From Tetrahymena elliotti 4EA (Eukaryota > Ciliophora > Oligohymenophorea > Hymenostomatida > Tetrahymenidae), in NCBI GenBank assembly GCA_000231825.2, contig JH720298.1, positions 563,742-627,741 on the forward strand: a DNA stretch of 64,000 nucleotides, read 5' to 3'. The notes beneath the pieces were generated by a model. That model was not told where the DNA came from, ran no database searches, and worked only from the letters and a program-made list of their open reading frames with translations. A program made the translations under genes and the position numbers. Below are positions 29,246 to 59,135 of this stretch, piece by piece (the first letter of the stretch is position 1; each line of letters starts with the position of its first letter).

Positions 29246-32200
29246 ATGTTTGAAAATTAACAATAATTATTTGAAAAAATAGAGAACATGCATATAAATG
29301 GCTAAGATAAAAATCCTGCATCAGAATCTGAAATTTACTAATGTAATATTTTATTTTTATTCATTAAATTATACTTTATTATTTTAGATCACAATGAAGG
29401 ATAACTCAACCTGCATGAATCCCATTTTGATCAAACAATGAATATGTAAATATTCTTTTTATAGATTAGATTTTTACATAATTATTTCATCTATTCAAAA
29501 AGGTTGTTAGTAGCATAGAATTAAAATTAAGCATAAAAACTACTGAATGATAGCAATTTTAACTAGCAGCAAAATAACTATTATCATTAACCCAATCCAA
29601 ACTAGAACTCTTATTTCCCAAATTTTAATACATCTGATCCCTAGTTTGATTAATCAAACCCTCAAAGTAACTATCCAACTAATTAGTATTATCATCATTA
29701 ATATCATAATTAGCATCCATAAAATTTGGCACCAAGCTATAATTATTAAAATAATTAATAGACAAACTATTAGCCTAACATAACATAACAATTTAGAGGA
29801 ATGTAAACATAGCAATAATTTAGTTAAGAGTAATAAAATAACTATTAGAACTAGGATTAATGCTACAATAATTAAATGTAGTTAATCAATTTCAACTAAA
29901 ATAATCAATATTCAATTTAAAACTAAAATAATAATAATACTTATTAACAATCCCCACAAATCCATCTGTAATTCCCATAAAATAATAGCAACTTTAAGAA
30001 TAATTAAGTTTAAAATGATTCATAAAATAATTTTAATTAGCTGCACCATTATTAACATGATTAGTAAAATTAAAATTAGTTTAGTTAATAAAACGATTAA
30101 TCACAATATCCATTAATTAATTAAATTCAAAATTATGCACATTAAACTTATATCTAGAATTAATAATAAGAGCATGGCATCTCTAACTAATTTCAATTTG
30201 CAAATCCTTAACAAAATAGTTTCATTTTTAATAGTAGCAATCAGTAATCCATAAATAATATAAACTAACTACAGGGTACTGGGTAAGCTTAAAATATATT
30301 TGAAACTTAAAACTATAACAACAATAATTAATAAATTCAATTTTATCAATAAAATAGTAACTTTATTAGGAATAATAATCCCCTTTAAAATAGTGAGTAA
30401 GCATCAGCAAGTATCTATTAAAATAATTGCACACTTTAATAATCAAATCTGCATTAGATTTATGAAAATAATCCAAATTTTAACAATTTTGATAATTAGA
30501 ATTAAAGATTAAATTTTAACTAAGTGAGCAAATAAAATAACTTTATCTAGTAATTTCAAACTTAAATTTAAAGTTACTAACCAATAGATATCAATTAATC
30601 ATAGTAAGCACTTATTTAAGAAGAATACCTTTTAGCTAGTACTAAAAATCAATAAGACATTAATGTAAACTAATCAAAGAATCCCTAGCAAATTTAAAGC
30701 ATTTAGGAAAGTTAATAAAAAAGTGGTATGAATTCTAATTTTCAATAGCAATAGGCATTTTAATATGGTCAAAATTAAGAAATATAAGGTAATTAATAAA
30801 ATATTTAAATTAATGAATGTTAAAAAACTCAATAAGAGAGTTGTATCAATACAGCAGCAGGATATAAATAAGATTACAATATATAATAAAATGAGATAGA
30901 AAATTCTTATCAAAGCTATGCAAATTAAAATATACTAAATGCTTAATAAGCTAATTTTTAGGGTAATGTTTGTCTTAATAATAACTAATAAAGCTAATTA
31001 AGCCATTCTGAAATGTAAAATTAAAATCATTAAAATTAAAGTAAGATTTCTAACTAATACAATTCTTGCTCTAACCCTAATTAACAAATAAGTGTGATAA
31101 AAAATTAAACAGGCAGTGTTTTATATTAAGAAACTTATACGTCCAACAACAATGAGTAAAATTTTAACTTAAATGATGAATATTAATAATAGTAATAATA
31201 ATAATAACCATAATAAAATTCCCAATAAAGTTTAGTTAATCATCAAGTCTAAAAAGAAAATATAAATAATGAACAGAATTCTTAAATCATGATTGATTTA
31301 TCATAAAATCAAGCAGAAAATGAGAAAAATTGGAATGAATAAATTTCATCAAGTAGTATAAAAATAAATTAAATTTTAAGTGAAGAGTAGTGTTAAGAAT
31401 TATTCTAAAAATAGTATGAAATTAAATATGGAGATTAAAACTAAAAAAATTCAATAAGGATTGAAGCTACATAGTTTTCTTTAAATGAAGTTAATTTTTA
31501 ATTTTTATGTGCCTTAAATCAATTTATAAATCTAAACTTTGATTCTACTAAATATTACAATAAGAATAAACTCGAAATTTTTATGCCATAAACTTTATCT
31601 CAATATGCAGAAGAAAAATTTCCTCATAATTAAAAGAAAAAATAATTGTTTAATAAGCTATAAGAAAGTTAAGAAGGTTATAAATATATCTTGGATTTAA
31701 GAAGAGGAGAACATTCTTTTTTTAGAGCAACAATAACAGGTTTTTTGATTTCCTTGTTAAGTGAAAAAAGTGATGAAGATGATGATGTTGTTAATGATTA
31801 GAAATAATTAATTTTGCAAATATTTACCAAATTTTTCTACATGGAATGCTAGAATATTACTCTAAATGAAAATCCTTACAATGAAATCAATGATTTAAAA
31901 CTGTATCAAAATTACAAAAGTTACTTTTTGAATTGCTTTCTATATCTATTAGCACATAAAATAAATAACTTTTCAAGTGGCTATATTATTTCTGAACTCT
32001 TAGAAATGTGTTATAAAGATGAAGCTTTTGATTTCTCAATGATTTGCTTTGGTATTTAGTTATGCAATATTGAATTGAATTTTTTGTAAAATGATAAGGT
32101 TTTTAAATAATTCTTTGACAGCTTTTTTTAGTAAATAGATTGTTACTAATTTGAAATGAATGAAATTTACTAATAATCACTTGTTCATTCTCTCCAAACA

Positions 32201-34252
32201 GATATAAAAATGTTTAGTTTAACAATAGATCCAAAGGATAAAAGTAAAATGTTAATGAAAGAAGAGCTTATTATTCCTGGGGAAAAATATATTATTTCAA
32301 ATATTAAAATGATTAAAGTTGACAGTTTTTACAAGCTTGTTTTTGATTCTGATTAAAAACATTTTTTCAAGTATTTTAAAGATTTCACTGCAAAAGTTGA
32401 TAAATTAAGTTAATACGCTGAACCTGTATAAGAAATATAATAATAAGATTCTGAATATTTTGAATGTGCACAATGTGGAAAAAAATTAGAATTTGAAAAA
32501 GATTTACACATTATTTAAGATGAAAAATCCAAATTGATGTTTTCTTTTTGCTTAGAGCATATATTTGAGATTGTAAATAAACAATTTTCTGATAAAAATC
32601 ATAAAATTCCATATAAATACCATTAACATACTACAAATAAAGATTTTTAAATTTTTGTAGATAGATTAAGTATTTCATGCGTTGTAGATAAAATAATAAC
32701 TTAACAATTCCCTTAATTAAAAACTCAATGCTTCGAATGCAAGAGCAAAGATGAAAGCAAATTAATTAACTTAGTTACCTTTACAAAAATATTGTAGCCT
32801 GTAATTTGCCTTAGTTGTGCTCTAGAGAAAATCAAAGAAAGTAATTACTTGAAAGAAAAGCATATTAAATTCAAAAATTTATTAAATAAAGAAGATCTTA
32901 TCAATATTAAAGAACTATTTCAAAATTTTATAAAAAGAGAGAATGAATTAAATAAGAACTGTTCATGTTGTAAAAAAAACTAGTAAAGATATTCTAAAAA
33001 TCTTTCTATTTAAAATATTTATATAGTTTTAAATTTATGTGAAGAATGCAACAAATTACCTAGGTTAAAATTAGATAAGATAAATATTTTTATTGATAAT
33101 AATTTAACTAAGGCTCAGTTAAAATAAAATGCTGAAGATACAAAAAATAAAAAGTAAAATGAGGAAGAAAAGAGCTAAGTTGAAAGAATAAAAAAACAAG
33201 AATCATTATATTAAAATTAATTGACAAACATTACATCTGATAATGTTAATATTTATCAAAACCAGAATTTTAGTTAAACACAAAAACCTTAAATTCTGTA
33301 AAATAAAGATCATGAATAATGTCTAACTAAATAACTAAATAGTTTAAAAATTTCTTAAAAAGCCTATTAATAAGAGCTTCAAAGCAATTTGTAGTAAGTA
33401 TAAAAAGAGATAGAATCTATTAGTAGAGCAAATTAAAGCTAAATTAAAAAAGATGATATTTCATCTTATTCTCACAATTTATAAGTAAATTCAAACTAAT
33501 TGTAAAAATATGTTCTAAAATAAGATTCAAATATTTAGATTAAAAATGAATCAACAAATAAACAATAAGGTTTTACTTTCTTAAACTCAAGTGAATAATA
33601 GAAGAAAGAATAAATAAATTAACCATTTTTAGAGCCAAAAAAATTGTATCACTAAATAACTTAATAGACAATATATATAAACAATCACTCATATTAATCA
33701 GTTTACAATTTTCCATTTTTATAGGGACATTAAAATATAGAATTGAGTAAAATAACTTAATCTCTACCATACTAAACTTAAGTACCTTTTTTATAAATTA
33801 CAAATTAAAAAAGTCCTACTATGTTTTCTTAAATACCTAAATAAAATGTTATACTATCTCCTGAAAATTCTAATGCGAAAACAGTTAGTTAAAAATAAAA
33901 TTAAGCACCTTAAGAAAGTACATTAAATGTAAAGTATAAATTAATTTGCTTAACATGCCCAAATAAAAACTTGACTAATTCAATACTAATAAACTTATAA
34001 AGAGTATCAAAATAATACAAAGGAAATTACTGTTTAAATTGCATATTAGAAAAATTTAGTAATTTTTAACAAAGATTTAACATTTATTCAAAAGCTCAAC
34101 TAAACAAATTATTTTATTGTTGCAAATGTGGAGAAAATTTGGATGATACAAATTTAAAAGACTTAATTCTTAAATCTTTGGAAAAAAACACTTTAGAATA
34201 CTATTAATGTAGGAAATGCTCTTTCAAAGCTTGCATCAAAGTTTATCAATGA
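29246..34252 (+). CDS. Pseudo-otubain: Q/N-rich protein with inactive OTU-like domain and five paired C-x2-C modules
   Basis: Model: join 29246-29342, 29388-29445, 29503-34252 (1634 aa). Introns of 45 nt (29343-29387) and 57 nt (29446-29502) are GT...AG; the start is uncertain. Exon 3 is open for 4750 nt to TGA 34250-34252. Residues ~50-640 are extremely Asn/Gln/Tyr-rich and prion-like, with poly-Gln encoded by TAA repeats. A conserved lead-in (QYEIKYGD; IRIEATQFSLNEVNFQFLC) precedes the otubain-like region. There RRGEHSFFRATITGFLISLL aligns with RGDGNCFYRAAMIGILISII of the paralogue at 42865, so the catalytic Cys is Ser790. VDSFYKLVFDS aligns with KGHYNIIFDS of the 45701 copy, so the catalytic His is Phe994. 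Five modules of C-x2-C-x(19-30)-C-x2-C (one ends CLEH) follow, for example CAQCGKKLEF and YCCKCGENL. Likely a catalytically dead ubiquitin-binding or regulatory relative; this is inference. Confidence 0.75.
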
Positions 34253-34564
34253 ATGATTTTTTAAATCAATAATGAAAAATATTTACTTGTTTGAATTATT
34301 TTATTCTTTTAATAATTTTGTTGATTTTTTAATATTTTTATTATCTTTTTTAAATAAAAATTTTTTTTTTTGATGTTTGTCATATATTTTTAGATTTTTA
34401 AGTTAAGATTTTCACAAAGTAAGTGAGCTCCTTAATGAATCTATTTATATTTTGATAGTGCTCGCTCAAGTAAGTTATATATATAAAATTTATTATGGGC
34501 TCTTTCATTCTGATATTGATTTTATAAAAATTAATTAATTCAATAAATTCCATAGAAATTAAAA
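34253..34564. other. Spacer before transposase remnant
   Basis: AT-rich spacer. If the Tc1 element has a left terminal inverted repeat it should lie here, but I could not find a convincing match to the right flank. Confidence 0.4.
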
Positions 34565-35592
34565 ATGGTTTTGTCAAAACAATAATTAGGTGTGCTCATT
34601 CCACTAAAGAAAGAAGGATTCTCTGGGTATCTAATTACTTAAAGACTAAAAGAGTATGGTGCAACTATCACTATTCAAGCAGTAAACAAAATTTATAAGA
34701 AATTTACTGAGTTTAGAGGTGAATAAAGAGTTGAAAACAGAGGACAGAAATCTTAGCTCACTGAAGAATTGAAAAAATACCTGAATTAAGAGGTATAGAA
34801 AGATAAATTTCTCACTGCAGTAGATCTTTCAAGGCATCCATTTGTCAACTAACTCAATCTTAGTGTTAGGACAATCTAAAGGTATTTGCTCTAACTAGAA
34901 TTAAAATGTAAGACCGCTTCAACTAAAAACTACATCATAAAAAATAACATTAGTGTTTGATATGATTGGGGTTTGATGATGAGTTAAATGAAGAGATCAG
35001 AAATCAACTCCATAATTTATAGTGATGAATCTAAACTTTTTTGTTAAAAGTAAGGTATAATGCTTGTTAGATGTCTTGAAGGGAAGAAGCTAAGTCCAAA
35101 ATACTTCTAAACGAGAGAGATGTTTCATGGCGGTAATGAAATTATGGTATGGGGGTTAATCTCACCAGAAAGTCCTCTTAGGCTAATCAGAATCGATGGC
35201 ACATAAAATGCATACAAATATATTGATTTATTAAAAAAAAATTTACTTACTATTGATGAGATCAAAAAAAGGAAAGTACTCTTTTAGTAAGATAGCTGTA
35301 AGGTTCACACAAATAAGAAGTTGATGATTTTCTGAAAATAAACAAAATTACAAAATTGAAATGGCCCTCCTAATAGCCAGATATGAATTAAATAGAAAAC
35401 CTATGGGCTTTTGTGAAAGATTTTCTACATAAGAACAGAGAGAAGATAAAATCAAAAGATGATGTATGGAAGTTTGCTGAGAGAGCTTTCTTTTCTGATG
35501 ACAGTGAGTCCTTAATCAAAAGAATGTATGAAGATTACCCTCAAAGAATAAATTGTCTCTTCAAGGAAGAAGGAAAAATAACAAAATATTGA
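34565..35592 (+). mobile_element. Decayed Tc1/mariner-family (DD34E) transposase
   Basis: Tc1/mariner transposases cut and paste DNA at TA sites. ATG 34565 opens MVLSKQQLGVLIPLKKEGF with an N-terminal helix-turn-helix-like region and a second one (LSVRTIQRYLLQLELK). The catalytic core is recognisable: first Asp in IIYSDESKLFCQKQG, HGGNEIMVWGLISPESP, second Asp in VLFQQDSCKVHTNKK, and the Glu in WPSQQPDMNQIENLWAFVKD. About 34 residues separate the second Asp and the Glu, the Tc1 spacing. The gene is broken by a TGA within ISV-YDWG near 34955, a TGA after LMIF near 35330 and a frameshift before the Glu motif. The last frame ends at TGA 35590-35592. It lies between two otubain paralogues on the same strand. 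No terminal repeats were identified. Confidence 0.85.
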
Positions 35593-35750
35593 AATAAAAT
35601 TTATCTTTTCTACCTTTTTGTTTGCAATAGTGGATTTTATATTTATTTTCTAAAATTTTTGAAATTAATAAATTTTCTTTATTTCTCTCAACTTCATATT
35701 AGTATTGTGATTGTTAATTAAAATTTGTTATCTTAATATATTATTATATC

Positions 35751-36011
35751 ATGAATGATTTAGATCCAATTAAAAATATTTTTCTTAAAATATTGTTTAG
35801 GCCATAGATTATATAAGAGTATTAAATTGAAATAATAGATGTTGTTCCTCTTTAAATTCCTTCAAATGTCCAACTCTTTTTTGGAGGGAAATATAATTAT
35901 ATAGAAGATTTAAAGAGTAATATTTAGATAATATCTATTAAAAAGTATTAAAGTTAGGGGGGAAAAAAGAGAAAATAAGAATCTTTAAATTTGTTGATAT
36001 TTTTTAAATGA
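35751..36011 (+). pseudogene. Short protein-like frame of 86 codons, possibly truncated
   Basis: ATG 35751 to TGA 36009-36011 reads MNDLDPIKNIFLKILF... and VPLQIPSNVQLFFGGKYNY. The same frame continues after the TGA with protein-like sequence (NNLYVKNTKEGKTIVLFEYG) to a second TGA near 36104, which suggests a nonsense mutation or an intron. I do not recognise a family. It could belong to the transposon remnant or to the broken gene downstream. Confidence 0.3.
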
Positions 36012-36106
36012 CAGATAAAAAATAATTTATATGTAAAAAATACAAAAGAAGGTAAAACTATTGTTTTATTTGAATATGGCATTACAAAGATAGCATCTAT
36101 GCACTG

Positions 36107-36439
36107 AAGAATTAAAAATTTTCATCTTTTTTTAGTGAGAAATGTTTCAGATTGAATAAAAAAAATAAAAAATAATATTGATACTAAAAGGAAAGAAAGA
36201 TAGGCTAAAGGGATATCAAAATTCAATCGAATCAGCAAGAAAATCATTTAAAATGGCTGTTATACATATTGTTTTTAATTTAGAGGCAGCTAAAGATAAA
36301 ATTAACAAGAAGTTATTTGGTCATGGATAAAAATGATAATATAGCTCACCTTTTTTGCTTTTATACCATAATTAAATTACTATTTCAGAGCCAATTTCTT
36401 TTAACTCTAATTTGATGTAAAACAAACTTACTAATGGTT
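36107..36439. other. Spacer
   Basis: AT-rich spacer. It may contain decayed 5' sequence of the following pseudogene, but no exon can be supported. Confidence 0.3.
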
Positions 36440-38437
36440 TTGATTTATAAAAAATTAAGCAAATTCTGGAAAAAATTAAAATACTTCAGAGCCTGAAAAT
36501 TAACTAATCACATAATCTACAAATAAGAAATAATATTAAAATGAGATATCAGATTAAGTTGAAAAATAATAAAATAAACTGATAAATTAAAAGCAAGATC
36601 ATTAAAATAGAGTTAATAATCAATAAAACCCAAATTAAAACAAAAATGAATTCCTTTTTAATTAAAATAAAACATCAAATTAAATAATATAGACTCATCT
36701 AAACAAAAATTTAGAATAAAATTAATAGGATCAAGGAAAATCAACAAGATTTAATGAAAGTTTGAAAAATGGTATCTATGAATAGAGTAGCAATTAACAT
36801 ATTAATTATTAAAATTGCTAAAGTAATTAACTTAGTTAATTCAGTTCAAAAAAGGAAATTTTTAACTAAAAACAAGAAGAATCTTAAACCCTGATTGTAT
36901 AAAATCTTAGTGTATAAATATTTTAATAACTTAATAATTAATAAAATTAAATACAAAATAAGGTTGAGCAAATTCCATTTTGTTCAAATTATGAGTAATT
37001 TTAATATTTATTCATATGAAATTAAATATGGATAATTAAACAAATAAAAAATTATTAAAATTGAAGCTTCAAAATTGGTTCAAAGTGAAGACAATATTTA
37101 ATTTTTTATGCCTTAACATTTTGTAGTCAAAATTTTGATTACACAAAATACTACAAAAAGAAATCAGTAAAAATTTATCAACCAATAACATTATGCTAAT
37201 ATGCAAAAAAAGAAATTTATTAACAGTCACTTATTTAGTCTCTTTAAGCAGACATAAAAATATTTAGTTTATAAGCAGATTCTAAAGATAGGCATAAAAT
37301 ATCCATGGAAGAAGAACTAATAATACCAAGAGAATAAGATACTATTTCAAATATTAAAATGATTAAAAATGAAAATATTTATAAACTTGTTTTTGATTCA
37401 AATCAAGAACAATTTTTCAAATATCTAAAAGATTTAACTCCAAAAGTTGTTCAATAAACTAAAAATTTAAAGTTAATAGAATAAAATACTAAACAAAATT
37501 TTGTTAGATTCTAATGTGTAGAATGTGGTAAAAATTTAGAATTCGAAAGAGATTTACATACAATTGTTGATGAAAAGTCAAAATTATTTTTTAATTTTTG
37601 CTTATCACATATTTTTTAAATCTAAAAAAAGAGTTTTAAAATAAAAAGAATATAATTATTTACAAATTCAAATAATTTGAGTTGTAAGAAGAATTAAGAA
37701 TTTTCATAAAAAGAAAAAACATGACTGAAACAATAGATAAAATAACTATTGCAAAGTTTCCTAATTTAAAAACTCAATGCTGCTTTTGTTAGAATAAAGA
37801 TAAAAGTAAATTGATAGGCTTAGACACAGTTACTTAAATAATGTAGCTTGTAATTTGTTTTGAGTGTACCTAATCTATAACCAAAGAGATAAAAAAATAA
37901 AAGAACATAATCTTCGTACTTTTCACATTGAAGATATTTATGTCAATCTAAATTTTTGTAGTGAATGCTTGGTTTTACCAAAGATAAACTTAAGTAGACT
38001 AAATATTCAGATTGAAAATTATTTTATTTTCTTATCTTAAAAAAGTTAAACCTAAGAAACAAAAGATAATAAATAGTAAGAGCAAGAAAAGTACTATCCA
38101 AAAAAAACTAATGAGGAATAATTAAAAAATAATCAAGTTATATAAGATTCATAAATGAATATTGTATAAAACTACTTAAATTAATAAAATTTAAAATAAC
38201 CAAGTTCACCTTTAATGATGTAAAATAGAGATATTCCTTAAGATATTATTTCTAAAGTAGATAATTTAAAAATATAATCAGAATCAAATACTTTTAACCA
38301 AAAAGCTAACAAATAATAAGACTTAAATGTTTATATTTAAAATGAATAACAGAAGAAGTAAAAAATTAGTTAATAAATTGCAGTTTAATAAAAAATAGAT
38401 AGCTAAAAATAAAATATTTAATATATTCAGAATGAAT

Positions 38438-38468
<31 letters not shown>

Positions 38469-39001
38469 GTTATTAATAGGCAAATTAATAAATATAATTC
38501 AGCATAATTACTTAAACTCACTATTATCCAAATTAAGAGCCCTTTTTAAAGATAAAAAATGTAAATTCTTCAAAGAATTTTATTGACAAATAATCAAATA
38601 TCTTCTAAACCTCATTAAACTATTAAATTAATTCCTGAAAATTTTAATGCTAAAAAAAATTAATCCAACATAACATTCAAAAAATTAAGAAAAATAACTT
38701 AGTCAAGAATAAAATATTTTTTATAAGGCATATACTTATTGATTTAACTGGGGTTTCTAATTAATATAAAGGACATTATTGCTTAAATTGTTTAATAAGC
38801 ACATTCAATAATGTGCATCAAAGTGAAAATATTTATTCGAAGGCATGGTTCAATAATTTATTTTATTGCTGTAATTGTAGAAATAGAATTTTTGATAAAG
38901 ATTTAAAAAAATTAATTTTGAATTCTATCTAATCCTAAAGTATAGAATAGTATTATTGTGAAAAATGTAAAAAACCAAATATAATTAAAACCAAGAGATG
39001 A
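36440..39001 (+). pseudogene. Broken paralogue of the pseudo-otubain gene, catalytic segment missing
   Basis: A Q/N-rich frame (36443-37015) is followed, after a TGA and frame change, by YEIKYGQLNKQKIIKIEAS and FFMPQHFV, which match YEIKYGDQNQKN and FMPQTLSQYAEE of the gene at 29246. The next recognisable block, KEIYQQSLIQSLQADIKIFS then MEEELIIPREQDTISNIKMI, matches a point about 200 residues further along that gene. The segment holding the OTU nucleophile region is therefore absent. The remaining parts of the Cys-module region (CVECGKNLEFERDLH, QCCFCQNKDKSK, ICFECTQ, NFCSECLVLPKINL, YYCEKCKK) are present but split by at least three TGA or frame changes (near 37370, 37720, 37920 and 38585). 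It ends at TGA 38999-39001. It is almost certainly non-functional. Confidence 0.75.
38438..38466. repeat. TAAA microsatellite
   Basis: A run of (ATAA/TAAA)n about 28 bp long inside the pseudogene. In code 6 it would encode an I-N-K-Q repeat. Confidence 0.6.
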
Positions 39002-39639: not shown

Positions 39640-39749
39640 AGAGGGTACTTAACAGGTCCAAATAGTATAAGGAAGAATCCTAAGGAAATAGCAGAAGCGA
39701 TGAAAATAGCTTTAAGCGCAGTGTATATAGCAATATACTATTGAAAAAT
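39640..39749 (+). pseudogene. Helix-turn-helix-like fragment, possible transposon remnant
   Basis: A GC-richer patch reads YFERGYLTGPNSIRKNPKEI then AEAMKIALSAVYIAIYY before TGA. The pattern I-R-K-N-P-x-E-I-A-E-A...S-x-V-Y resembles the N-terminal helix-turn-helix of Tc1/mariner transposases. No DDE motif follows. Identification is tentative. Confidence 0.25.
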
Positions 39750-42180: not shown

Positions 42181-42864
42181 CATATTTTTTAGTTTAATTA
42201 TTTTATTTTTTACTGTCTGGTAAATAATATAGACAAAATATATTGATATGTTACTTTCACTAGTGTTTGTATGTAAATAAAAGAAAACAACAAACAAATC
42301 TTCTTCTTTCTACAAAAAATACGAATAAAAAATATAAAAAAGCTTAAATATTCTAAAAAATATTTGTTTATTTTGATTTTTGATGAGTTTTTTTAAATTC
42401 ATTTCCAACAAAGACAATTTACAAAATTTTCAAAAACAAACATAAAAAAAAGCAAAAAAAAATTTGAATGCTTAGTTGCTTATTTCTTAACCAATTTATT
42501 AAATTTCAAACATTTTTTTATTGTTTTATTCTAAAAATAGCTCAGATTAACGACAGTCAAAAGCTAAATTTTTTAGATAAGATAGGGATGAACAATAAAT
42601 CATATTAAAAGAATTGACCATATTATTACTATTATTATTATTTTATTCTATAGCTATTAAATGTTTGTATGCTCATAATAGTACTTTCTTTCTTTATTTT
42701 TTTCATAATAACAATACAAAATTTGTAAAATATTTTTTTAATAAAAAGTAAATACTTTGCTGATAGATAAATATTCAACCTTTTTTAAATTATTTATTTG
42801 TTATTCACTAAATAGTTATAGTTAGTTGTTTGTTATTTATTATAAGTAAGAATATTTATTTATC

Positions 42865-45430
42865 ATGGAATAGTTAGTAGATTTGTTTGGTTACTAGCTG
42901 ACAAAGCATTAGTATGATAATATAACAGCAAACGAGTAAGAATTATAGTAGTTCTTGCAGATTATCTCCTAAAAGATTAATTAGAAAGGGCCTGAATATT
43001 TCTAAAAGATTAGAATATAGCTAAAATCATAATTACAATCTTTTTAGCAATTAATTAGAGTAGAAGAATACGCTTTTCAAAAATTGTCAAATAAATAGCT
43101 TAAGCAGGGATATACTGATGTAAGTAAGCAATATCCCTACTTGATTAAGGTGAGAGGAGATGGAAATTGCTTTTATCGAGCTGCGATGATTGGAATTTTG
43201 ATATCAATTATTCAAAAAAATAAAAATGAATTATTTAGAATATTAATCAGATAAATATAATAAACAGATAAATTCGTGTATTAATTAAAAGACGAGCAAA
43301 TGTCAATACAAGAAACAGATATTGGGCTGATTCTAGTGAAATTTTTTACATAGATCCTGATATAAAAAACAATAAATAACAAGTTTAGCATTCTTTAGCT
43401 GCTTGCAGAAATTAATGATTTTCCAGAAATAGATTTAAGTTTGATCATATTTTGTAGGAATTTTGTACATAAATATTTTGAAAAGTCTTTAAAAGACCCT
43501 CAATATAATTAATTTATTGGTGATGATATGAAAACCAAAATTCCTTTTTCCTTATGCGTTATTGGTGAACAGGCAGAAGACGTAATTATTCCCATATCTG
43601 CTGATGTATTTTTTAAAAAAATTAAATATTCTAATTTGTTAATTTTATCTTTAATAATCAAGGCTTTTTCCTATAACATAGTCATATAAAATCTCTACAT
43701 AGACAAGAATGACAAACTATATACAGATTAAATTTAATATAAGCCCAATATTGGTAATCCATTTGATACTATTATTTTGTGCTACACCCAAAGCCATTTT
43801 GATCTTCTTCTCTCATCGGACTAATCTTAGATATTTTAAAACTACCCATAGATCTAATTAAATAGTAAATTCATTCTTAAGATTATGAACTCACAAAGAA
43901 TATTGAAAGATGAGCTGATTGATAAAGAGTTAGAATAAGATGAAATTGAAAAGGAAAAAAAATCATAGTTATGTAAATACTATTAATTCATAAATGTTAT
44001 TTAATTGCATGTATTAATATAGTTTATTAATAGCAATTGTATAAAGATGATTATGAAAATGGCATTGGCAATTATGAGAATAATAAATAGCATCAAAGTA
44101 TCAGCTAAAAAAAAGTAGACAAGTGTAAAAAGTAGATTCAAAAAGGGGGGAAAAATAAAGAGAAGGAGGAGAAGGAAAATCATAGAGAAAGCAGTAATCA
44201 AAATGATGAGTACTATTCAGAAAAAAAATAAAAGAGTAAATTAAAATTTTATTAAAAAAGCCAAATAAAAAATTTACTTGATGTATTTGATTGATTAGGT
44301 GAAAAGAAGAAATTGAGCTTTTACTAAAGGCTAAAGTCATTTAAGAAATGTTTTGAAAGCAAATAGGAATCAAAAGAAGAGCAAAAATGGAAATGTTTGG
44401 AGTGTCAGAAAGAATTTATTTCTAATTAAGAAGAGGAAATGAGCAAAGCCTTTCTATGTGATAATTGTTATTAATTGCAAAGCAATCAGTTAAGTATTAG
44501 TAAATATTAAATATTCTAAATTGTTTTTATTTAATTTTAGATTAAATCCTTTAAAGGTGGTTTTATTTTAATTTGATCTTTTTATCTATTTTATTAGTTC
44601 GTTAAGACAATGATAAGAAAAAGTCAAATATTGAATCCTAAAGAGTTTGCAATCTATGTGAGAGTGAGTTAGAATTAGATGAAAACTTTCATAGTGATGA
44701 TATTTGCAAATAATGTATAAAAATTCAGCTTCTGACAAATTATAAATAAAATGATTGTATTTCATGTAAAAAAGAAGCTCAAATTAAAATTGAGAGTCCT
44801 ATTTATAATGATTTTTAACTAGGAATATGCTATGAATGTGTGAGAGAGAACTTCATCTTATTTAAAGATCAATAGAAATTAGATACTCTCAGAGTTTTCT
44901 TAAAAGGCTTATAAGCATATATTGTATTTAATGTGAATGAGGAAATTTCAAAATAAATAAACATGTACTAAAGTGGCATAGCTAGCATTGAATAAGATAA
45001 AAATTAGCCTTCATGTTTCTTTTGTATGGAGTCAGGAGATTAGTTTTTATATGAGACAGCCAACCCATAAATCCAAATATGCATAAATTGCTTCAAATCT
45101 TAAGAGTATAGGCAAATTAAAGACAGTGCCTAAGATGAATAAATTTAGAACATTTTATGGTAAATAATTAACTAATTAAATGTATCGACATGCTTTATAT
45201 GTTTTGATCCTATTGATGAAGAAAGCAAAGACGATATCAAAGTTTAAGACATTATAAGGGAATCATCAATTTAAATATGTCTAAAGTGTTAAAAAGAAGG
45301 AATTATTGTTTTCGATCAAGACCAAAACATTTCAGCATTCAGTAGCTATTTAAATCATCCTTTAAATATTATTCTTAAAGAGGAGGATTAGCAATAACTT
45401 AAATAACTTTTTCAAAGCATATTAAATTGA
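42865..45430 (+). CDS. Otubain-like (OTU, C65-like) cysteine protease with five paired C-x2-C modules, 765 aa
   Basis: Otubains are deubiquitinating cysteine proteases. Model: join 42865-43605, 43663-43972, 44023-44235, 44299-44499, 44598-45430. Introns are 57, 50, 63 and 98 nt with GT...AG ends; a 41-nt alternative exists for the last. The nucleophile motif VRGDGNCFYRAAMIGILISI gives Asp99 and Cys102. EIDLSLIIFCRNFVHKYF and EDVIIPISAD match the otubain helical region, and YTQSHFDLLL supplies His292. After an acidic/basic linker come five C-x2-C...C-x2-C modules (CLECQ...CDNC; CNLCE...CKQC; CISCK...CYEC; CFFCM...CINC; CFICF...CLKC), which probably bind zinc. The first intron position is shared with the paralogues at 45701 and 54459. 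The next gene starts 270 bp downstream on the same strand. The catalytic motifs are intact, so activity is likely. Confidence 0.9.
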
Positions 45431-45700: not shown

Positions 45701-48700
45701 ATGGAGTAGAAGATAAGCATTTTTGGAAAAACTTACTCTCTTCAGTTTTTTGAGGAGGTTTTCAGCAATTAATAGATCAAAAATATTATTTTATAAGCAA
45801 GTTAGAGAGGGACTAGTCCAAATTTCGATATTTAGAAGATGAGGAGAACAGTCAACTAAAAGATAGAGAGCTTAGTAGAAATAGGAACATTTTAGCACTT
45901 TTTAGATAAGCAAGCTTAATAATAAGATAAAACTGAAGCATATCAATTAGTAGCCTAGACTTTTCCTGTGTAATTAGTTGTAAGAGGGGATGGAAATTGC
46001 TTTTATCGTTCTTTTATAGTCAATTACATTTTTAAGATAGTATTTTATTAGTTGAAAGAAGAACTATTTTAGCTAATTGCGAAAATATGGAATTTTTAAC
46101 AATATCAAATTAAATTTGAACACAATTCTGTGAAAATAAATTCTGAAGAGTTTAAAGTACTCTCTATTCGCTTCCTCTTTGATGTATTTATGAAAAAAGC
46201 ATAAAATTAAATAAATTTAACTTTATTCATAAATTAATACAACAACTAACCAGAAGTTGATCTGAGTTTTATTGTAATTTGCAGAAACTTCATCAACAAT
46301 TACTTCTCAAGAAATCTTAGAAATCCCTCTAAATTAGGTTTTATAGATGAACAAGACTAAGTTGAAATTCCTGTTCTTCTAGAAACATATGGATCTGAAG
46401 CATAAAATACAATCATTCCTCTTTCTGCAAATGTAGATAATTTTATTTGTTTAAAATTAAGGTTATTTATTTAATCATAAAAATATTTTAAAATAGGCTT
46501 TTAACAATGTGAAATTGAATTTTTAGAATTTATATAGAGACTTAGTTGCGAAAAAATTCTAAACCAGACTTGATGTGTATAACGATTAGAGTGCGAAATT
46601 AAATGTTTAAAATTAAGTAAGTGTAGATGTTTTATTCACCAAAGGTCACTACAATATTATTTTCGATTCACAATTTTCCTAGCAATTTTGTTAAGACATA
46701 GTTTCATAGAAAAAAGAAGAAAATTAAAGCATCATATCTTCAGTTTCTAGCAAATTATTTAATATCTTTGTGTCAAAGCAACCTGAATCATAGAAAATTC
46801 AGCAAAATTCTCAAAATTAACCATTTATTTAAAGCTAATTTTAGAATTAAAATTAAGAAAATAATTCTCATTTATATTAAAGTAATTTATCAGTAAGTAG
46901 CGATAGCAACCAAAGACAAAGAAATATAGATAACTCATAACTGAAAAGTTAATCTGCTATAAGCTAGAGTTCTAGTTCAAGCAAACTGTAATCATAATCT
47001 TCAGGAGTTAAGAAGAACCCATTTGAAATTAATAATTCATAAATAAAATAAAATAGTAATAGTTTTAATATTTAAGATTAAACTAATAGTAATCTCAATA
47101 GCAGTTAAATTAGTTAAATATAACAATATTAGAATATTTCAAAATAACCAGAGCAATCTTATGAAATCACGAACTACTTTTACAGTCCCCCTTTGAATAC
47201 ACTAGCTAATAAATAAATTAATAGTTAACAGTAATACCAACCATAACAAAATATAAATCAATAGAATTTATTATAGTAAAATATTAACTTAAAGAGTACC
47301 TCATAATAAGGCATTAACAGAAATAAATAAAACTCTCAGACTAATCTCTCTTAAAATATTAAAAATTATTAAAATTAAAATATCTTGCAGAATAATAATA
47401 ATAAGACTTAAGTTGAAAACTAAGGATCTACTTTTTCTGCTTTGAATCCTGGATTAGAAATTGATGAAAATGCTTTCTAAAAAAATAAAAAGAGAAATGA
47501 AGAAATAGCTAAACCAGCTTTGGGTAAAAGAAATAGCTGTGATATATGCAGTCAAAGTAGAAACACATATGACTTGCTTTATATTTGCATTTGCCAGGAT
47601 TGCATAATTACAAATTTACTAAATTTAAAAGAGCCTAGCTTGTAAATTTTAGCTGATTTATTCAGATTAGTTAAGAATGATAAATTTTGTTTAACCTGCT
47701 TTTCTAACATTCCTTATACTGTCAGCATAGAATCATAAAACAGCACAGACGCTTTTAAACTTATTTGTGGAAACTGTTAAAAAAATGATTATGTTCCTAA
47801 CTTTTTTGTAAAATTATCAAATTTTATGTAAGAATATAGTGTTTAGCTGAATGATGTTGTTTCAAAATAAAAATAAATATTTAAGAATTGGGAATAGTCG
47901 TAGTAAGAATCAAAATAGAATTAAAATATACTGTCTGTGTCGTACATCTTTTAAACTATTAAAGATCTAGTGTAAAATGAAAATAGGTTAAACAATAACA
48001 CTTATAGAGTTAACTTGTAAAATTCTATGAGAAATAAAACCGATGCTTAGAGAGATAGCTTAATTGAATTTCTTACTTAAACAAACAGATTTAAAGATTT
48101 CTGCTTTGTGTGTGAATCTAATGTAGCTAAATCATTTGAGTTGCCTTTATAGAATGGAGGTACAATTAGACTGTGTGTTGAATGCATTCACGAAATAGAA
48201 AATATATATACTGCAGTCATTAAAAATAATGGCCTTACCTATTTATATTGCAGCTTAATAGATCAAAAGGTTATTCTCCATATGCAAAATTAAAATCTAT
48301 CATACTACTTTAACATTAAAAAGCATTGTTATAACTGCCTTGAATAAGCATATTTTCCCTTTTAAGTGTCTAAAAATTATTAATTATGTTTTAATTGTCT
48401 TTCTAATTAGTAAGAATACTTGAAAAATGATGACAAACTTGTTGCTTTGGTGAAAAAGTAAACTAAATAATTCTAGAAATGCTTAGGATGCTTCTAAAAT
48501 GTGAATGTTGAGGACACTAAAATAGACAGATCTATGTATTTATGTTATGTCTGCTCAAATTATAGCATAGTCAAAGATCCTAATTCCAATTGTTACTAGG
48601 TACTCAATAGAGTCTACAATCGTCATTTTAAAGTTTAAGAAAATGAAATATGTGATTATTTTATTGATGAAAAGGAAAACGTTGTTTTTTTGACAGAATC

Positions 48701-49106
48701 ATCATCTGAGAATGAACCCACCTCTCTCGTTTAGCAAGAAAACTATGACCTAGAATTACTGAAATAAAAAATATTAGATTGTCCAAAATGTAATTATGAC
48801 TAATTACCTAAAAGGCTTTTTGACTCTATTTAATGTACTTGCAAATTTGAACATAATTTAAGCAACAAAACGATCTCTGTAGAAGAAGGATAGCAAGTAT
48901 ACTGTTTATTCTGCAATAGCTACATTAATGATAAAGAAAATAATTTAAGTCACCATTCTCTCTCAGCAAAGAGTATAATTCAGCATTTTAACTCTTCAGA
49001 AATAAATGTAAAATACTTCTTCAAAAACAAAATTAAGCTTGTAAGATGTGGTAATTGTAAGCATTTGCAATCAATTTAAGAATAATACTCAGACTATTAA
49101 TTTTGA
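45701..49106 (+). CDS. Otubain-like cysteine protease with about seven paired C-x2-C modules, 1113 aa
   Basis: Exons 45701-46432 and 46497-49106, joined across a 64-nt intron (46433-46496, GTAGAT...AATAG). Both exons are phase 0, and the join restores TIIPLSAN-AFNNVKLNFQNL. The nucleophile motif VRGDGNCFYRSFIVNYIF gives Asp97 and Cys100, and LFTKGHYNIIFDSQFSQQF gives His295. The otubain helical block EVDLSFIVICRNFINNYFS is present. Residues ~330-570 are a Ser/Asn/Gln-rich linker. The C-terminal ~550 residues carry about seven C-x2-C pairs with a partner pair 13-40 residues on (CDICSQ...CQDC; CLTCFS...CGNC; CFVCES...CVEC; CYNCLE...CFNC; CLGCFQ...CYVC; CPKCNY...; CLFCNS...CGNC). This suggests repeated zinc-binding modules. 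No membrane segment is seen. It is adjacent to the gene at 42865 in the same direction, as expected from tandem duplication. Confidence 0.9.
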
Positions 49107-50371: not shown

Positions 50372-51028
50372 ATGAATCAGGTAAAAATTGAATCAATTAA
50401 TCCAAAAAATAGTGAAAATATAGTAGAGCCAAATATAGCATAAAATTTTACAGATATTTTAGTAGTTACTGTAAACAGAACAATCAAAATAGAAAAATAG
50501 ACAATACTTTTTCCCAAAAGAAACAAATGTAATTAATAAATTACAATATAAAAAAAGAAATTCACGCTATTGAAAAATTAAAGAAACAGATTTTACCCCA
50601 CTTCCCAGCCAATCCTTTAATTTTACCCGAACTTGTAAAGTATATTTAAAAATATCTCTTCTAATCTATCATTGGATCAGCAAAAAAGTAACAAAGTTTC
50701 TCTCATCTCTAGTTAATTTTAATTTCATTATATTGAAGTACAAGGCTAGAAACCAAATATATTTCAGCTAAATAATTTTTTTACGATTATATTACAAAAT
50801 AATTAAAATTTATAATTCTTCAAATCTACATTAGGAAAATTTAATTAAAAGAATTTCACAGGATCAATAAATAAGAAATTATTAAATCCTTTTTGTATTC
50901 TTCCTCTTCAAATAAAATTATTATTTTCATAAATTATGCAGTTACAAATTGAAAAATAAAGAAAAATTGATTAGTATTTATTTAGCTTTTAAATTAAAAT
51001 AATTTATATTCTGTGCAGCAACAATTGA
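50372..51028 (+). CDS. Possible gene of unknown function, splice structure uncertain
   Basis: ATG 50372 opens MNQVKIESINPKNSENIVEP and the frame stays open to TGA 51026-51028 (218 codons). From about 50560 a different frame reads better (IHAIEKLKKQILPHFPANPL then ILPELVKYIQKYLFQSIIGS). The two would join across a GTAATT...AAAAAG stretch of only 29 nt, shorter than every other intron in this window, so either a very short intron or a frameshift is involved. No motif identifies it. It may be a remnant. Confidence 0.35.
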
Positions 51029-52260: not shown

Positions 52261-52617
52261 TCATTTGCAGAATGTTTGCCATGAGTTTTGTATTTGGGCT
52301 GGAACGTTGAAAGGTAATTTGAACTATTCATTGTTCTTCAAGCAAGGGGTATCAAATGAAACAAATTTTTAAGTTTCAAGGTCTTCGTAAGAAATGCTGA
52401 ATTTGTAACCAAGTTTATAACAGCGGTTATGAGCAAAAAGGGATCTTTCAGGGTTAGGGTTTGATTCTGTTGGGAAAGGGAAGTTATCTCTAACTTCCAG
52501 ACAATTTGCAGTATCTTCAAGAGTTTTACTATTTGAGTTTTATTTAAACAGAACAAGAGTTGATCCTGTTAAAAGGGTAAAAATTAAACCCAGGACGATG
52601 AGCAGTTTATCTTTCAT
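52261..52617 (-). CDS. Small secreted or single-pass membrane protein, 118 aa
   Basis: ATG 52617 to TGA 52263-52261, one exon of 118 codons, with GC content far above the surrounding DNA. Residues 4-26 (KLLIVLGLIFTLLTGSTL) form a signal peptide or N-terminal anchor. The rest is polar, with four cysteines (ANCLEV, HNRCYKLGYKF, DTPCLKNN, WQTFCK) that could make two disulphides, and a Pro/Asn-rich segment (PFPTESNPNPERS). No family recognised. A secreted or lumenal role follows from the leader only. Its neighbours are unrelated genes more than 1 kb away. Confidence 0.8.
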
Positions 52618-54458
52618 TTGATATTTTAATCTTTATTAAATAAGCTTATTTATTTAATTATATTTATGTCAATAGATTTTAGCAGTATTTATACAGTTAA
52701 TCATAGAATTTCTAAAGAAAAATACCTAAAATTTGAGTCATTTGGAATTTCAAAATCTATTCTTAATTACGTATTATTTTTTTGTTTCTAATTAGGTTTT
52801 GCTAGTTTATTTGATTGATATTGAATAGAAATGACTAATTTTGTAAAATAAAAGAGTTATTCTCTTCCAATTTTCCTTCTCAAACATTCCCAATTTTTTC
52901 TACATTTGGGTTACAGATTTATATTTTTGGAGAAAGGAGTCCATTTATTAGTAAGATAAATTTATTTTGTTTGATAAACATTTAAGCTTGTAAAGGTATT
53001 TTAGTTACTCTATAAATTTTACTTTCTAATTTAATAAGAAGGGTCTGATAAAAAAATTTATTTTCTTTATTGGAATCTCCTAGTTTTATATCTCTCATTT
53101 TTCAAAAGTTTTTCTTTTATTAAATGTAAATCCCTTTCTTATATATTTAGAAAAATGTTTGGATTTTTAAAAATTTATCTTGTTTTACATTATCTTATTT
53201 TTTAGTAAAATTATTACAATTTTAACTTGATTTAAGTATTGAAAAAATAATTTTTTATGGCAAAAAATCTGTTTTTGACAGTATCTTATTTTATATAAGA
53301 AATTTAGAGTAAGACTAAAAATAAAGGAGTAAGCTTTCTTGATTATTAAAAGATAATCATTAATTTTAAATTTATATTTTTAACAATACAAGCAAATATA
53401 GTATCAACATTTCTAAACAAAAAAATTATTTATGTTCAAGTCCAGGAAATTTAAATTGAAATAAATATTAAAATCTTTTGTGTGATATTCTGTTAATTTT
53501 TTAGATTTCAAAAACAAAACAAATGAAAAATATTTCTTAACTTTTTACTTGAATATTTAATAAAGTTTAGTTTAATCACAGTTTCAAAGTATTTTTTGAA
53601 TGAGAAAGCAGTATCAATATTTCTTTTGAAAAATTAAAAACAAAATTAGAAGAAAAAAATTATTTATAATTTTTTAATAAAATATTTTGGGTCAATAAAA
53701 GTTAAGATTTTCATTTTAAATTCTTCAATAAATAATAAAAGATAAATAAATTGGTTTCCAACATATTTATTTGGATTATAAAATATTTATTGTAAATAAT
53801 GTTTAATTAAAATTATTTTTTCCTTGTATTAAATACAGTCTAATCTGATCAAATCTGAAGTTTATGAAATTGAGAAATAATTTATTTAAATAAAGAGAAT
53901 TATTCAATCTTGTATTAAGCTTGCAAAATATTAACAACCAAAAACCATACTTAACTTATTAGTATTAAATAAAAAAAATATTTTTAGTTTAGAAATAAAT
54001 ATCAAAAATAACATTTTTTACTTCATCAATGATTTATTGGTCAAAATATTTCAAATAAAAATAAGAAAAAAAATGTAAATAAATAAATAAATAAAGAGGT
54101 TCTAATATTTAGTTATTGATTCTATCAAAGAAGATGATCTTTCTTTATAATTATTATAGACTCTTAATTAACCACAAAAAAGAAAAAATCTATTTATAAT
54201 ATGATTACAAAGAAATAGTAGAAAATGAATTATAATTATTACTAAAATTTGGTTTTGGAATAATAAGAAGAACCTAATCTAAAATCTCTATGTAGGTAAG
54301 GGATCTTATTTTTATTCAAATCTTATATTGCTTTTGCTAGCTGGGTTATTTAATTGAAAAGATTTATTCTAATAACTAATTTACAATATTGAATGAATAA
54401 ATAAATAATTAATTAATAATTTAGAGCAAAATATTTTTAGAAGGATTGATAACTACTT
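52618..54458. other. Intergenic region
   Basis: 1.84 kb of AT-rich DNA upstream of two divergent genes (52617, minus; 54459, plus), so it should hold both promoters. A TAAA microsatellite lies at 54077-54095. No gene seen. Confidence 0.5.
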
Positions 54459-57400
54459 ATGTTAGAAAATTTTAAGCGAAATATTCAAAGACCTGGTATA
54501 TGGACTTAGTAACAAAAGAAAGAAGAAAGCATTTATTAGATAGTCTACTAAAAGATATAGGAAAATGTACCAAAGATGAAAAGAAATGATTTATATGGTT
54601 AAGTGTCTGGCATTTACGAAGTTGGTAATTTGGAGGAATACTCAAAATAATACAAAAGCTATTAAATCTAAGAATCAATTTAAAAAATAAGCTAAGAAAA
54701 TTAGATTTGGATAGGTGTAAGAGGAGATGGTAACTGTTTTTACAGATCAATTATCATCCTTTATCTCTTGGAATTGTTTAAGTCAGAAGATTTGAAACAA
54801 GTGGAGGAATTTATTTAGAGAGTTAAAAACTTGAAAAATATGAGCATAAACTATGAGTAATAGATGGACTGCTAAATGTTGTAATATGTTTTGATATGCT
54901 TTCTGTATAAGCTTAAAGAGATTAGATCAAAAACTCATATTAATATGATAGATGTTATAAAGTTGTACAACTCCTCACCTGAAATTGATGCAGCAGCAGT
55001 AGTTATCTGTAGAAATCTTATATATAAGACTTTTTAAATGTCCAAAAACCACCCAAACTTCAGTTTTTTTATAGAAGAGTAAATGAAAGAACTAATTCCA
55101 GAGATGTTACTAAAGTACTGTGAATATGCAGAAGATATCATCATTCCTCTTGCTTCTCAAGTAATTTTATCTTAGAAATTATTTTAAAATAATCAATTAA
55201 ATATATATATTTAAAAATTAAAGACTTTTAAATGCAATTTGTTAGTTTAAAACCTATACAGATAATCTACTACAAGCATTAATACTGAAAAGCTACCCTA
55301 TTAGCCATTTATTAATGCATCTCCAGTTTTTGCTACACTAAATGTTCTTTTCACAAAAGGCCATTATGAGTCTTTAATTTCTACTAGTTAAGTGAAATTT
55401 TATCCTTAGTTCTACACGATCTAAGCTAGACCAAATATTAACACTGACTTTAAAATTTAATTCTACTAAGAAATTTTAAATCAACTAGAAAGAGAACCTC
55501 AACCTTAATAAGAATTACAGGAAAAAAGAGAGAAAAATCAACAAAATGTTGGTTTATAGGAAGAATATAACAAAATAAATAATTTTCTCAATCCAAATGG
55601 TGATGAACCAACTCCCAAATAAGATTCAAACTCTACTACCCTTCAATAAGAAAAGATGCTTGAAAATAGTAGATAAGAATTGATATAATAATATGATTAG
55701 TAATCTTTCAAAACAGAAGAAGAATATGAGAAACAATATAAATCAGGTTAATATCTTGAAAAAAATAATTCAGAATAAGTAAAAGAAATTATTCATTAAT
55801 AAAAATTATCAAATAATCAAGAAAATATCCATCTTCTTAAAGGTGAAAGAGTTAACCAAAGAACAATTGATATAAATTAACAATAATAGGATGAAGAATA
55901 ATCTAGAAACATTTAAGCCAATAATTAAAATATTGTTCAACAAATACCTCCAAAAGAAGATAAAGAAACAGTGACATAATAGGTTCAAAAAGCCAACTCA
56001 AATTAAAGCATATCAACAGAACAAAAAGGAGATAATCAAAAAGAAATTAATGAAAAAATGAAGATTTCTAAAATAATTTAAATAAACAAGAAAAATCAAG
56101 AAAATTTAAATAAAGAAGAACTGATTCAAAAAAATTAACAAAAAGATAAAGCATAAATTAATGAAAAAAGTTAAATTTAAACAAACAATTAAGCCACAAA
56201 TCAAGAATAAAATCAGAAAATAACTTAAACCAATTCTTCAAATAATAAAAATTCTAATTAATTTAATTTTTTGAACCAGATAAAATGTTCACAATTTGAA
56301 AAATGCAAGAATTATATTGATATACGCAAAAATCCATAAATTTAAAAGATTACAATCTCAAGAAAACCACAGTTTTTATGTATTGATTGTTCTAAAAATA
56401 AAAGATAATCAAGCCCAGGAAAAGATAAGTAAGAAAAATAAGAAGAAATTGAACATTAAATCCCAAATGAAAATAATGATATTTATCAAAAGCAAAAAAT
56501 ATATTTAGAATAATCAAAAAATAATTCTGTAAAAACCTTAAAAGAGTAATAAAAAGATGTTGAAACAAGTGAAAAGTAAAATATTGACCGAAAATAAGAT
56601 ATTTCTTCATAGAATTAATTATTTTACTAATATTAGAATGATAATCCTTAAAATACATAAAAAAATAATGAAAACAGATAAAATACAATAAATAAAATAT
56701 TTTACACAAACAAAAGCAAACCTGATTTTAAAAACCAAATGATAAATAATGAAAAAAGTTAAGAGAATCTTAGTAACAAATAATAAGTTTTTAATCAAAA
56801 TTAAAATTAAATTAAATATTAAGATTAAACTGAAAATGATGGTTCAAGAAATAATTAAGTATCAAAGAAAACTAATTAGGATTAAATTAATTAAAACTTA
56901 ATATAAAAAGATTAAGTTCAAAATAAAAAAGATAGTTTACCTGAATAAGAGAAACCTACTCAAAGAACTGAAGAAAATCATTATAACAATCAAAGCAGTA
57001 AACCATAATAAGATTAAAATGAAAACTAAATCGAAAAAGAGTGTCAAGAAAGGTGTATTTGTTGTTTGAAAAACTATCATGAATTGCAATTTCTTGAAAA
57101 ATTTAATTTATTTTTAGCCTAAACTAAAAAAATTTGTTTTTTATGCCTGAACTGTTTACATAAAAATATTAGTAAATGGTAAATAGATTAAGACTTAATA
57201 AATATTAATGGAAATTAATACACTATGTTGGGTTAAACTTTTTTTAAAATTTAAGATATATTATCTTGTAATCCTCATTAAAAAGCATATGATAAATAAT
57301 AAGATCATAATATTTCGGTTTAAGAATTAAATGACAGAAACAAATAAATTGATAAAGATATAAATAAATGTGAAGAATGTCTTGAAAATATCTAAGGAAC

Positions 57401-59135
57401 ATTTACTTTAAATTATGATGTAAAAGTTATTTTAAAAAATGGCTAAAAGGAAGTGTAATATGATGGTAAAATATGTCATGATTGTTTGACAAATTTGTTT
57501 AAATAAATAAAAAATAATTAAGATAAAATAGAAAGCAGTAATAATAAGAATAAGCAATTTTTTATTAGTGAATAATTAAAATAGAGAATATAACCTAAGC
57601 AATTATATGAATCAGAAACTTATTCTTTAGACAATCAAAGGACTGATAATTTTAAAAATGTAGAAAAATAAAAAGAAAGAATAAAAGAAGAGGAAGTACA
57701 AGAAGAAGAGAAAGTTTATGAACAGAAATTCTTAAACAAAATAAATAATATAGATAGAAAAGATAATCTTCTCAACTAGAAGCAAACCTAACAAAATTAA
57801 TTAAATGAATATTTTTTAACTCAAAAGAAATATGATTAATAAGTTTTAAAATATAATTTTATTGAGGACTCTAAATCAATATCAGATAATCCATAATAAG
57901 GCTAAAAAAATAAAAAAGATTAAAATTAGAATTTAGATAATATAGAGAATTCTTAGCTTTTTAAATTAAATAAATGTGAAAACTGCAGAGCTTCTACTGA
58001 GAAAGATGAATATAAATATCAAATCATTGTTTTAGAAGATGATGAGACAAAAAATTCAATGCTCTGTTCAGCATGCTTTTAACTAATAAAAGCTAAAAAT
58101 CAATTTATTTAAAAAGATGGTATTATAATAATTGATTCAAAGAGATACTATTTAGATTTTGAAAGTTATAAATTATAATTATATATTCAATTTAATTTAA
58201 ATCTAATAGATGAGAATAAATAACTTTCAATTAAATAAAATCCTTCAAATAAAAGTAATTTTGAGTAATCAAATAAAATTTATTAAGATTCGTATTGTTA
58301 TTACTAAAATAGATGCGAAAACTGCTTTTAATGTGTGAAAGAAGATTAATATAAATATTAAACATTAGTGATAAAATATTATAAATAAAAAGAAAATGCA
58401 AAACTCTGCGAAGAATGCTTTTTAAAATTAGTAAAATAAAAACCTAAAATATATTTAGATTGTGAAGTTGCTTTTGAATAAAAAAGCTATTATATACAAG
58501 AAAAAAGTTTTACAAAACATATTTAAACTATTAAATAGAAGAAAGATATTTAAAGAGAAACTAGTGTTCAAGTTGCAATACCAAAATCTCATTAAATAGA
58601 ATTTAAAACATAAGAGGTTTAGGAAAAACTAGAAAGCCCTTAAATTAAATATGATCTTTTCAAATATACCCCAAATTTGTAATAAAAATTTAAATAAAAA
58701 CCAGAAAATTCTAATTCTATCAAAATTTAGTAAGTTGTAATTTCCCCTAAATATAAAAGTTCTAATATATTTAATCATCCATAACTATCTACTTAACCAG
58801 TCTATACTCAATAAAATTAATTTCGAAATGCGAGTAATGGTATTAGATTCTCTGAAAAATATTTAAGTAATGAGAAAGCAAATAGTAATAATAAGATAAT
58901 TAGTTCCACATCTTCAAAAGAATAGCAAAAACAGGAAAGACCTCTGTCTTCAATGCTCAGAAAATCAAATGATTTTTAAAAAGAAGAACAATTTTATTAA
59001 TAAGCTAAAACAAGTTAAAATTTTACTAATCAATTCAAACTTTAACATAAAGTTAATGATTTTATTTCAGAATAAAAAAAAGTTAATTAGCATTATTATA
59101 ACTAAAAAACAAATTTCTCTTATTACAAATAATGA
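54459..59135 (+). CDS. Otubain-like cysteine protease with long Q/K/E-rich linker and paired C-x2-C modules, 1537 aa
   Basis: Exons 54459-55160 and 55224-59135, joined across a 63-nt intron (55161-55223, GTAATT...TAAAG) at the same position as in the genes at 42865 and 45701 (after EDIIIPLASQ). ATG 54459 gives MLENFKRNIQRPGIWTQQQK. The nucleophile motif VRGDGNCFYRSIIILYLLEL gives Asp90 and Cys93; EIDAAAVVICRNLIYKTF is the otubain helix; LFTKGHYESLIS gives His281. Residues ~330-590 are a Gln/Lys/Glu/Asn-rich linker, probably disordered with coiled-coil tendency. Five C-x2-C-like modules are spread through the C-terminal half with long linkers (CSQFEKCKNY...CIDC; CICCLK...CLNC; CEECLE...CHDC; CENCRA...CSAC; CENCFQ...CEEC). 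It is the largest catalytically intact member and is separated from its paralogues by 5.3 kb. Confidence 0.9.

Follow-up and report, generated by a model that had tools for sequence, protein, structure and literature searches.

We analyzed a window of 64,000 nucleotides of Tetrahymena elliotti 4EA (contig JH720298.1, positions 563,742 to 627,741, denoted C6:563742-627741), and searched the genome of 89.95 Mb in 134 contigs. With the ciliate genetic code (table 6) the window contains 54 open frames of at least 200 amino acids (aa), compared with 0 under table 11. On its plus strand lie five related loci of the otubain (peptidase C65) family of OTU proteases, which are referred to by their start positions and listed with their parts in Table 1. 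The original prediction, made from the letters of the window, had given all five loci an OTU-like region, still present or formerly so, and a cysteine array; four are gene models of this kind, and the second locus is only a degraded remnant.

Table 1. Otubain-family loci and an unrelated transposase remnant in the window (C4, four-cysteine; Q/N, glutamine/asparagine)
Feature	Position	Strand	Remarks
Pseudo-otubain gene 29246	29246..34252	+	1668 aa, Q/N-rich N-terminus
Divergent OTU domain of 29246	~31586-32515		
Degenerate active-site motif LRRGEHSFFRA of 29246	31697..31729	+	Ser at catalytic Cys position
C4 modules of 29246	32729-34219		
Degraded copy of the 29246 gene	37015..38989	+	Pieces in changing frames
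OTU and C4-tail gene 42865	42865..45430	+	~765 aa spliced; exons 42865-43605, 43663-43972, 44023-44235, 44299-44499, 44598-45430 (later introns are simple-script predictions only)
RGDGNCFYR of 42865	43153..43179	+	
OTU and C4-tail gene 45701	45701..49106	+	1113 aa; exons 45701-46432, 46497-49106; orthologue of TTHERM_00008590
RGDGNCFYR of 45701	45983..46009	+	
Intron of 45701 after the IIPLS block	46433..46496	+	
Six C4 modules of 45701	47538..48914	+	
OTU and C4-tail gene 54459	54459..59135	+	1537 aa spliced; intron 55161-55223; orthologue of TTHERM_00008620
RGDGNCFYR of 54459	54720..54746	+	Catalytic His at 55362-55364
Four C4 modules of 54459	57054..58418	+	Third module (57960-58214) modelled
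Tc1/mariner-like transposase remnant, not of the family	34565..35600	+	Between the 29246 gene and the degraded copy

The array is larger than the window, since on C6 it comprises ten loci over ~90 kb: 29246, its degraded copy, 42865, 45701 and 54459 within the window, and C6:630080, C6:643016, C6:646899, C6:650839 and C6:678888 outside it. A second array of five loci lies on contig C36 (758566, 763319, 766438, 782808 and 786223), and seven dispersed loci were found, one each on C51, C55, C5, C8 and C65 and two on C1, so that the genome holds at least 22 family loci, a lower bound of the search. The catalytic Cys is present in 15 of the 22 and missing from 6, and one locus is without the active-site part of the OTU domain. 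Of the 15 Cys-bearing loci, 14 show a downstream His; the exception is C36:766438, in which no His was found within the frame. At least one C4 module is present in 14 of 17 gene models (module counts cover 17 of 18, with C1:551681 excluded). Close to the C-terminus of two tail-less members, C36:782808 and C51:577582, lies a hydrophobic stretch resembling a membrane anchor.

Genes 42865, 45701 and 54459 all carry RGDGNCFYR, with the catalytic Cys in DGNC, followed downstream by a His in the contexts QSHFD, KGHYN and KGHYE, respectively, and both the helix and the IIP(I/L)(S/A) block that had been described as recurring do so. In otubains an Asp or Asn is expected two residues past the catalytic His; this residue is Asp in 42865 and Asn in 45701. 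The curated cut-off of 24.3 bits for the Pfam peptidase C65 (otubain) family, PF10275, was passed by the OTU segment of 54459 scanned alone (53.2 bits), by the frame at 42661 (43.6) and by the first-exon frame of 45701 (26.6). A Pfam scan of the whole proteins 54459, TTHERM_00008620 and TTHERM_00008590 (P0005, P0006 and P0009) gave no match. The original prediction had assigned an OTU/otubain fold and proposed a structural check, and two results support the fold. First, a sequence profile matched rice OTUB (6k9n) with an E-value of 1.3e-16 over the whole domain, including the GHY block. Second, the T. thermophila orthologue was modelled at low confidence, and the top 36 Foldseek matches of its OTU region were all OTU enzymes; only this region of the full-length TTHERM_00008590 model was used. 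Cleavage of ubiquitin or ubiquitin-like chains is most likely for members whose Cys-His pair is intact, among them 42865, 45701 and 54459.

A GT-AG intron lies directly after the IIP(I/L)(S/A) block in all three genes. In 42865 and 54459 it keeps the frame (57 and 63 nt), and the open frames of the original prediction ran through it there; in 45701 its 64 nt shift the frame. Because of this intron, those open frames are not exact proteins. Placement of this intron, chosen as the best among many splice candidates per locus, raised the profile score by 7.5-42.3 bits in 13 of the 17 loci tried, including a rise from 304 to 342 for 54459. The annotated T. thermophila protein omits it.

That OTU domain and cysteine tail belong to one gene, as had been claimed, is borne out by full-length orthologues: over its entire length, the spliced 45701 protein can be aligned with TTHERM_00008590, ABPG72_017206 and ABPG74_009923 from three other Tetrahymena species, and two separate genes were rejected on the ground that each of these is annotated as one protein. 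Its OTU part is 78% identical to the T. thermophila protein, its linker 46%, with 61 gaps, and its tail 70%. The tail keeps every one of its 26 CxxC cysteines in the four species, along with 29 of its 35 cysteines in total and 287 of its 532 residues, and the spacings of the six modules are 14, 21, 20, 16, 17 and 37 in three species and 14, 22, 20, 16, 17 and 37 in 45701. The closest matches from T. thermophila, T. utriculariae and T. malaccensis reach 54-56% for the OTU region of 54459, 57-61% for 45701 and 43-51% for 29246, and the orthologues found are named hypothetical proteins.

Tail modules were searched for with the pattern CxxC-(6 to 50)-CxxC. Because this pattern selects both Cys pairs, their invariance in module alignments arises by construction, and the evidence for the modules therefore rests on shuffles and on conservation across species. 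The four window gene models contain 9, 10, 13 and 11 CxxC pairs, compared with maxima of 4, 4, 6 and 4 in 1000 shuffles of the same protein, and chance pairs were thus rejected for all four. Between the two pairs there are 14-31 residues in 50 of 57 modules. A model based on 8 of the 14 aligned window copies predicts the order CxxC knuckle, hairpin, CxxC at a helix start, second hairpin and helix, a treble-clef-like order that is weakly RING-like, and the modules probably bind zinc. A profile search of the modules had been proposed in the original prediction; no match of theirs was significant, and none in Pfam passed a cut-off. Pfam scans of family proteins and segments gave weak matches, under their cut-offs, to zinc_ribbon_6 (E 0.22) and DUF7140 (E 0.92). 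In a VIA search with the module model, 12 of the first 14 matches were RING-type ligase entries, at low Z. The aligned modules, having been chosen by the C4 pattern, show no invariant Cys or His outside the two pairs, and do not present the eight metal ligands in cross-brace order of a RING finger. The end of the C1:1483098 tail looks RING-finger-like by eye. When the genome was searched for sequences like the five-module tail of C6:630080, this tail recovered only itself.

The OTU-like region claimed for 29246 is present as a divergent OTU domain in which Ser stands where the catalytic Cys would be and Phe where the His would be, so that the C65 catalytic pair is lacking. Against the family profile this domain scored 21.4 bits (composition bias 37), compared with a best full score of -4.0 among 500 shuffles. 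A profile-profile comparison with the family minus its Cys-less members gave 96.0% (score 68.2), with 0.1% for the reversed profile and 1.3% (score 21.2) for the best of 99 column shuffles, and a chance assignment was rejected on these controls. Seven relatives of 29246 were found in T. thermophila, T. utriculariae and T. malaccensis; TTHERM_00007520 and TTHERM_00007530 are T. thermophila genes of the 29246 type. In the resulting clade of eight proteins from four species, Ser at the Cys position and the LRRG-SFFR motif are found in 10 of 10 domain copies and the His in 0 of 10; the copies were first picked with a pattern that included the Ser, and a motif-blind downstream profile recovered the same 10 copies in 8 proteins. 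P0017 (T. utriculariae) and P0018 (T. malaccensis), each of ~2600 aa, contain two pseudo-OTU domains and are either real tandem fusions or merged annotation. Five further loci of this genome lack the Cys. Ser replaces it in C6:678888, in C36:782808, where the His is retained, and in C5:1628127; C36:782808 and C5:1628127 are close relatives. Gly takes its place in C36:763319, and Ala in C8:946554, a copy read in a single short frame. Because the catalytic residues are lost yet the genes are kept in related species, the 29246 clade probably acts by binding rather than by cleavage.

In the family tree, 45701, 54459, the C55 and C51 members and C1:551681 join orthologues from other species with strong support, and the pseudo-otubain clade stands separate with several copies in each of three other species; the deep joins are unsure because the branches are long. 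The array is old, because several members have clear orthologues: on the evidence of the tree, the expansion dates back at least to the time when several Tetrahymena species split, and is not species-specific. Records of T. thermophila P0006, P0009, P0019 and P0020 share a contig size of 2,216,158, and those of T. utriculariae P0007, P0010, P0017 and P0021 one of 745,065, which we used as a proxy for the same contig. Locus-tag order, taken as a proxy for gene order, fits the window, with pseudo-otubain genes first, then 45701, then 54459. Of the lineage-specific deubiquitinase expansion that had been put forward, the expansion stands, at a level above the single species, and the enzymatic part is narrowed by the 6 of 22 Cys-less loci and the one without its active-site part. 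Outside Tetrahymena, a profile search in which 7990 candidates sharing most words were scored found two otubains, P0015 and P0016 (grass), both without the C4 module. Among the papers listed by literature searches, none was on this family. Among ciliates, the available text of PMC6925433 gives 3 C65 transcripts for Entodinium, and neither otubain nor C65 is mentioned in the main text of PMC3341644 on Ichthyophthirius. PMC11071308 was set aside, its available text concerning OTU domains of viruses, another matter than the Tetrahymena family.

We consider it probable that these loci form an old Tetrahymena otubain (C65) array in which the active members cleave, the tail targets them and the 29246 clade binds without cleaving. 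The sequences establish homology, gene structure, conservation and catalytic loss; zinc binding, cleavage, ubiquitin binding and the role of the tail are inferred. The 45701 and 54459 proteins combine an N-terminal OTU domain, a fast-evolving Q/N-rich linker and a C-terminal string of C4 modules that are modelled as treble-clef-like. Members with an intact Cys-His pair would cut ubiquitin or ubiquitin-like chains, the tail would bring them to particular substrates or partners, and 29246-type proteins would hold ubiquitin, E2-ubiquitin or partner proteins; that the tail recognises substrates is our guess. Several observations weigh against this account. Two residues past the His, 54459, C6:630080 and C6:650839 have Glu, as do both orthologues of 54459, and C36:758566 has Tyr. 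Three of the 17 models (C36:766438, C36:782808 and C51:577582) are without any C4 module, and a Pfam scan gives no PF10275 match for the OTU segment of 29246. The full-length TTHERM_00008590 (P0009) model has a mean predicted local distance difference test (pLDDT) score of 34.7, which leaves linker and tail unusable. With the module model, Foldseek returned nothing significant (best E 0.36, a ribosome chain), and when PDB sequences were searched with the module profile the best match, to a LIM protein, reached only E 0.28; these two null results do not show a new fold.

The otubains known so far are short proteins, and a genome has few of them. With OTUB1, OTUB2 and rice OTUB (C65) the family shares the OTU fold, the RGDGNCFYR or DGNC motif and the C-terminal GHY block; what sets it apart is the number of its loci (22 or more), the long Q-rich linkers and C4 tails of most members, the presence of Cys-less members and a residue two past the His that can be Glu. 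The original prediction knew of no characterised system with this architecture, and this is not supported, since A20 (TNFAIP3) is a known analogue and has the closest layout: a single protein in which an N-terminal OTU deubiquitinase precedes several zinc fingers, an arrangement found, with several C4 fingers in one gene, in the 45701 orthologues of three species. The OTU domain of A20 belongs to another subfamily, and its fingers have ~11 residues between Cys pairs, a spacing seen here in 1 of 57 modules; no zf-A20 Pfam match at E up to 1 was obtained among the family proteins and segments scanned. In the available text of PMC5826380, the OTU domain and seven zinc fingers of A20 serve ubiquitin editing. 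A similar editing role in Tetrahymena, with one protein both taking ubiquitin off and adding or steering it, is conceivable and rather unlikely; the OTU domain would then trim chains, the C4 modules, being RING-like, would recruit E2 or bind ubiquitin, and pseudo-otubains would be pure binders. We give equally small credit to an independently arisen A20-like editing family of otubains with one-zinc RING-like modules, in which Cys-to-Ser otubains would be ubiquitin or E2-ubiquitin traps regulating the substrates of their neighbours. Ser occupies the Cys position in the 29246 clade, C6:678888, C36:782808 and C5:1628127. With RING and treble-clef fingers the module model shares the order of elements; it differs in having one possible zinc site, of four Cys, rather than two sites, and no sequence match. 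Known pseudo-deubiquitinases share a deubiquitinase fold and catalytic loss with the Cys-less members, and are kept for binding, scaffolding or partner activation according to the available text of PMC10919355 and PMC5106787; the Tetrahymena proteins differ in forming a conserved otubain clade with a Cys-to-Ser change and its own C4 tail, which shares an array with active relatives. OTUB1 is described in the available text of PMC10919355 as an otubain that acts on E2 enzymes without cleavage. For mechanism, A20 and OTUB1 serve as analogies and not as tests.

C4 modules are common in nucleic-acid binding proteins too, and this, together with several ribosomal chains among the non-significant Foldseek matches of the module, and with the fact that OTU specificity is unreadable from sequence, favours a substrate other than ubiquitin: a different ubiquitin-like modifier would be the target of the enzymes, or nucleic acid would be bound by the C4 tails with the OTU domain as a passenger. 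We regard this as doubtful, as the nearest solved relatives act on ubiquitin and RGDGNCFYR is nearly unchanged in the active members. It is highly improbable that the array is decaying, with most copies, the Cys-less above all, being pseudogenes on their way out, since, although the copy at 37.0-39.0 kb is degraded and 6 of 22 loci lack the Cys, 29246 is a single open frame of 1668 codons, its clade recurs in three further species with LRRG-SFFR in every copy, other members have clear orthologues and the ratio of nonsynonymous to synonymous substitution rates (dN/dS) is low in one pair.

In the degraded copy, nothing matched parental residues 792-931, the site of the active-site motif. The nearby transposase remnant has an in-frame TGA and a weak PF01498 match under the cut-off (E 0.0067), its assignment being partly by eye, and no convincing terminal inverted repeats were found; it may be connected with the local duplication. 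Elsewhere in the window, 15850-17040 on the minus strand is a portion of a gene for poly(ADP-ribose) glycohydrolase (PF20811, E 2.4e-27), and no tandem repeats of period up to 500 were found in the 22-29 kb searched. Right after the last in-window array gene, 60368-64000 on the plus strand holds frames that look Cys-rich and secreted by eye, of which the piece 60936-61958 had no Pfam match.

If the array of cleaving and binding otubains is as proposed, it would represent an independent gain of a C4-finger string by an OTU deubiquitinase, for comparison with A20, in a ciliate genus that is amenable to genetics. Because Pfam misses the whole Q-rich proteins, though the 54459 segment scores well above cut-off, whole-protein Pfam surveys may undercount such genes in ciliates. 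In addition, the conserved pseudo-otubain clade offers natural otubains without catalytic residues in four species, and with them a way to ask what role an otubain has when it does not cleave.
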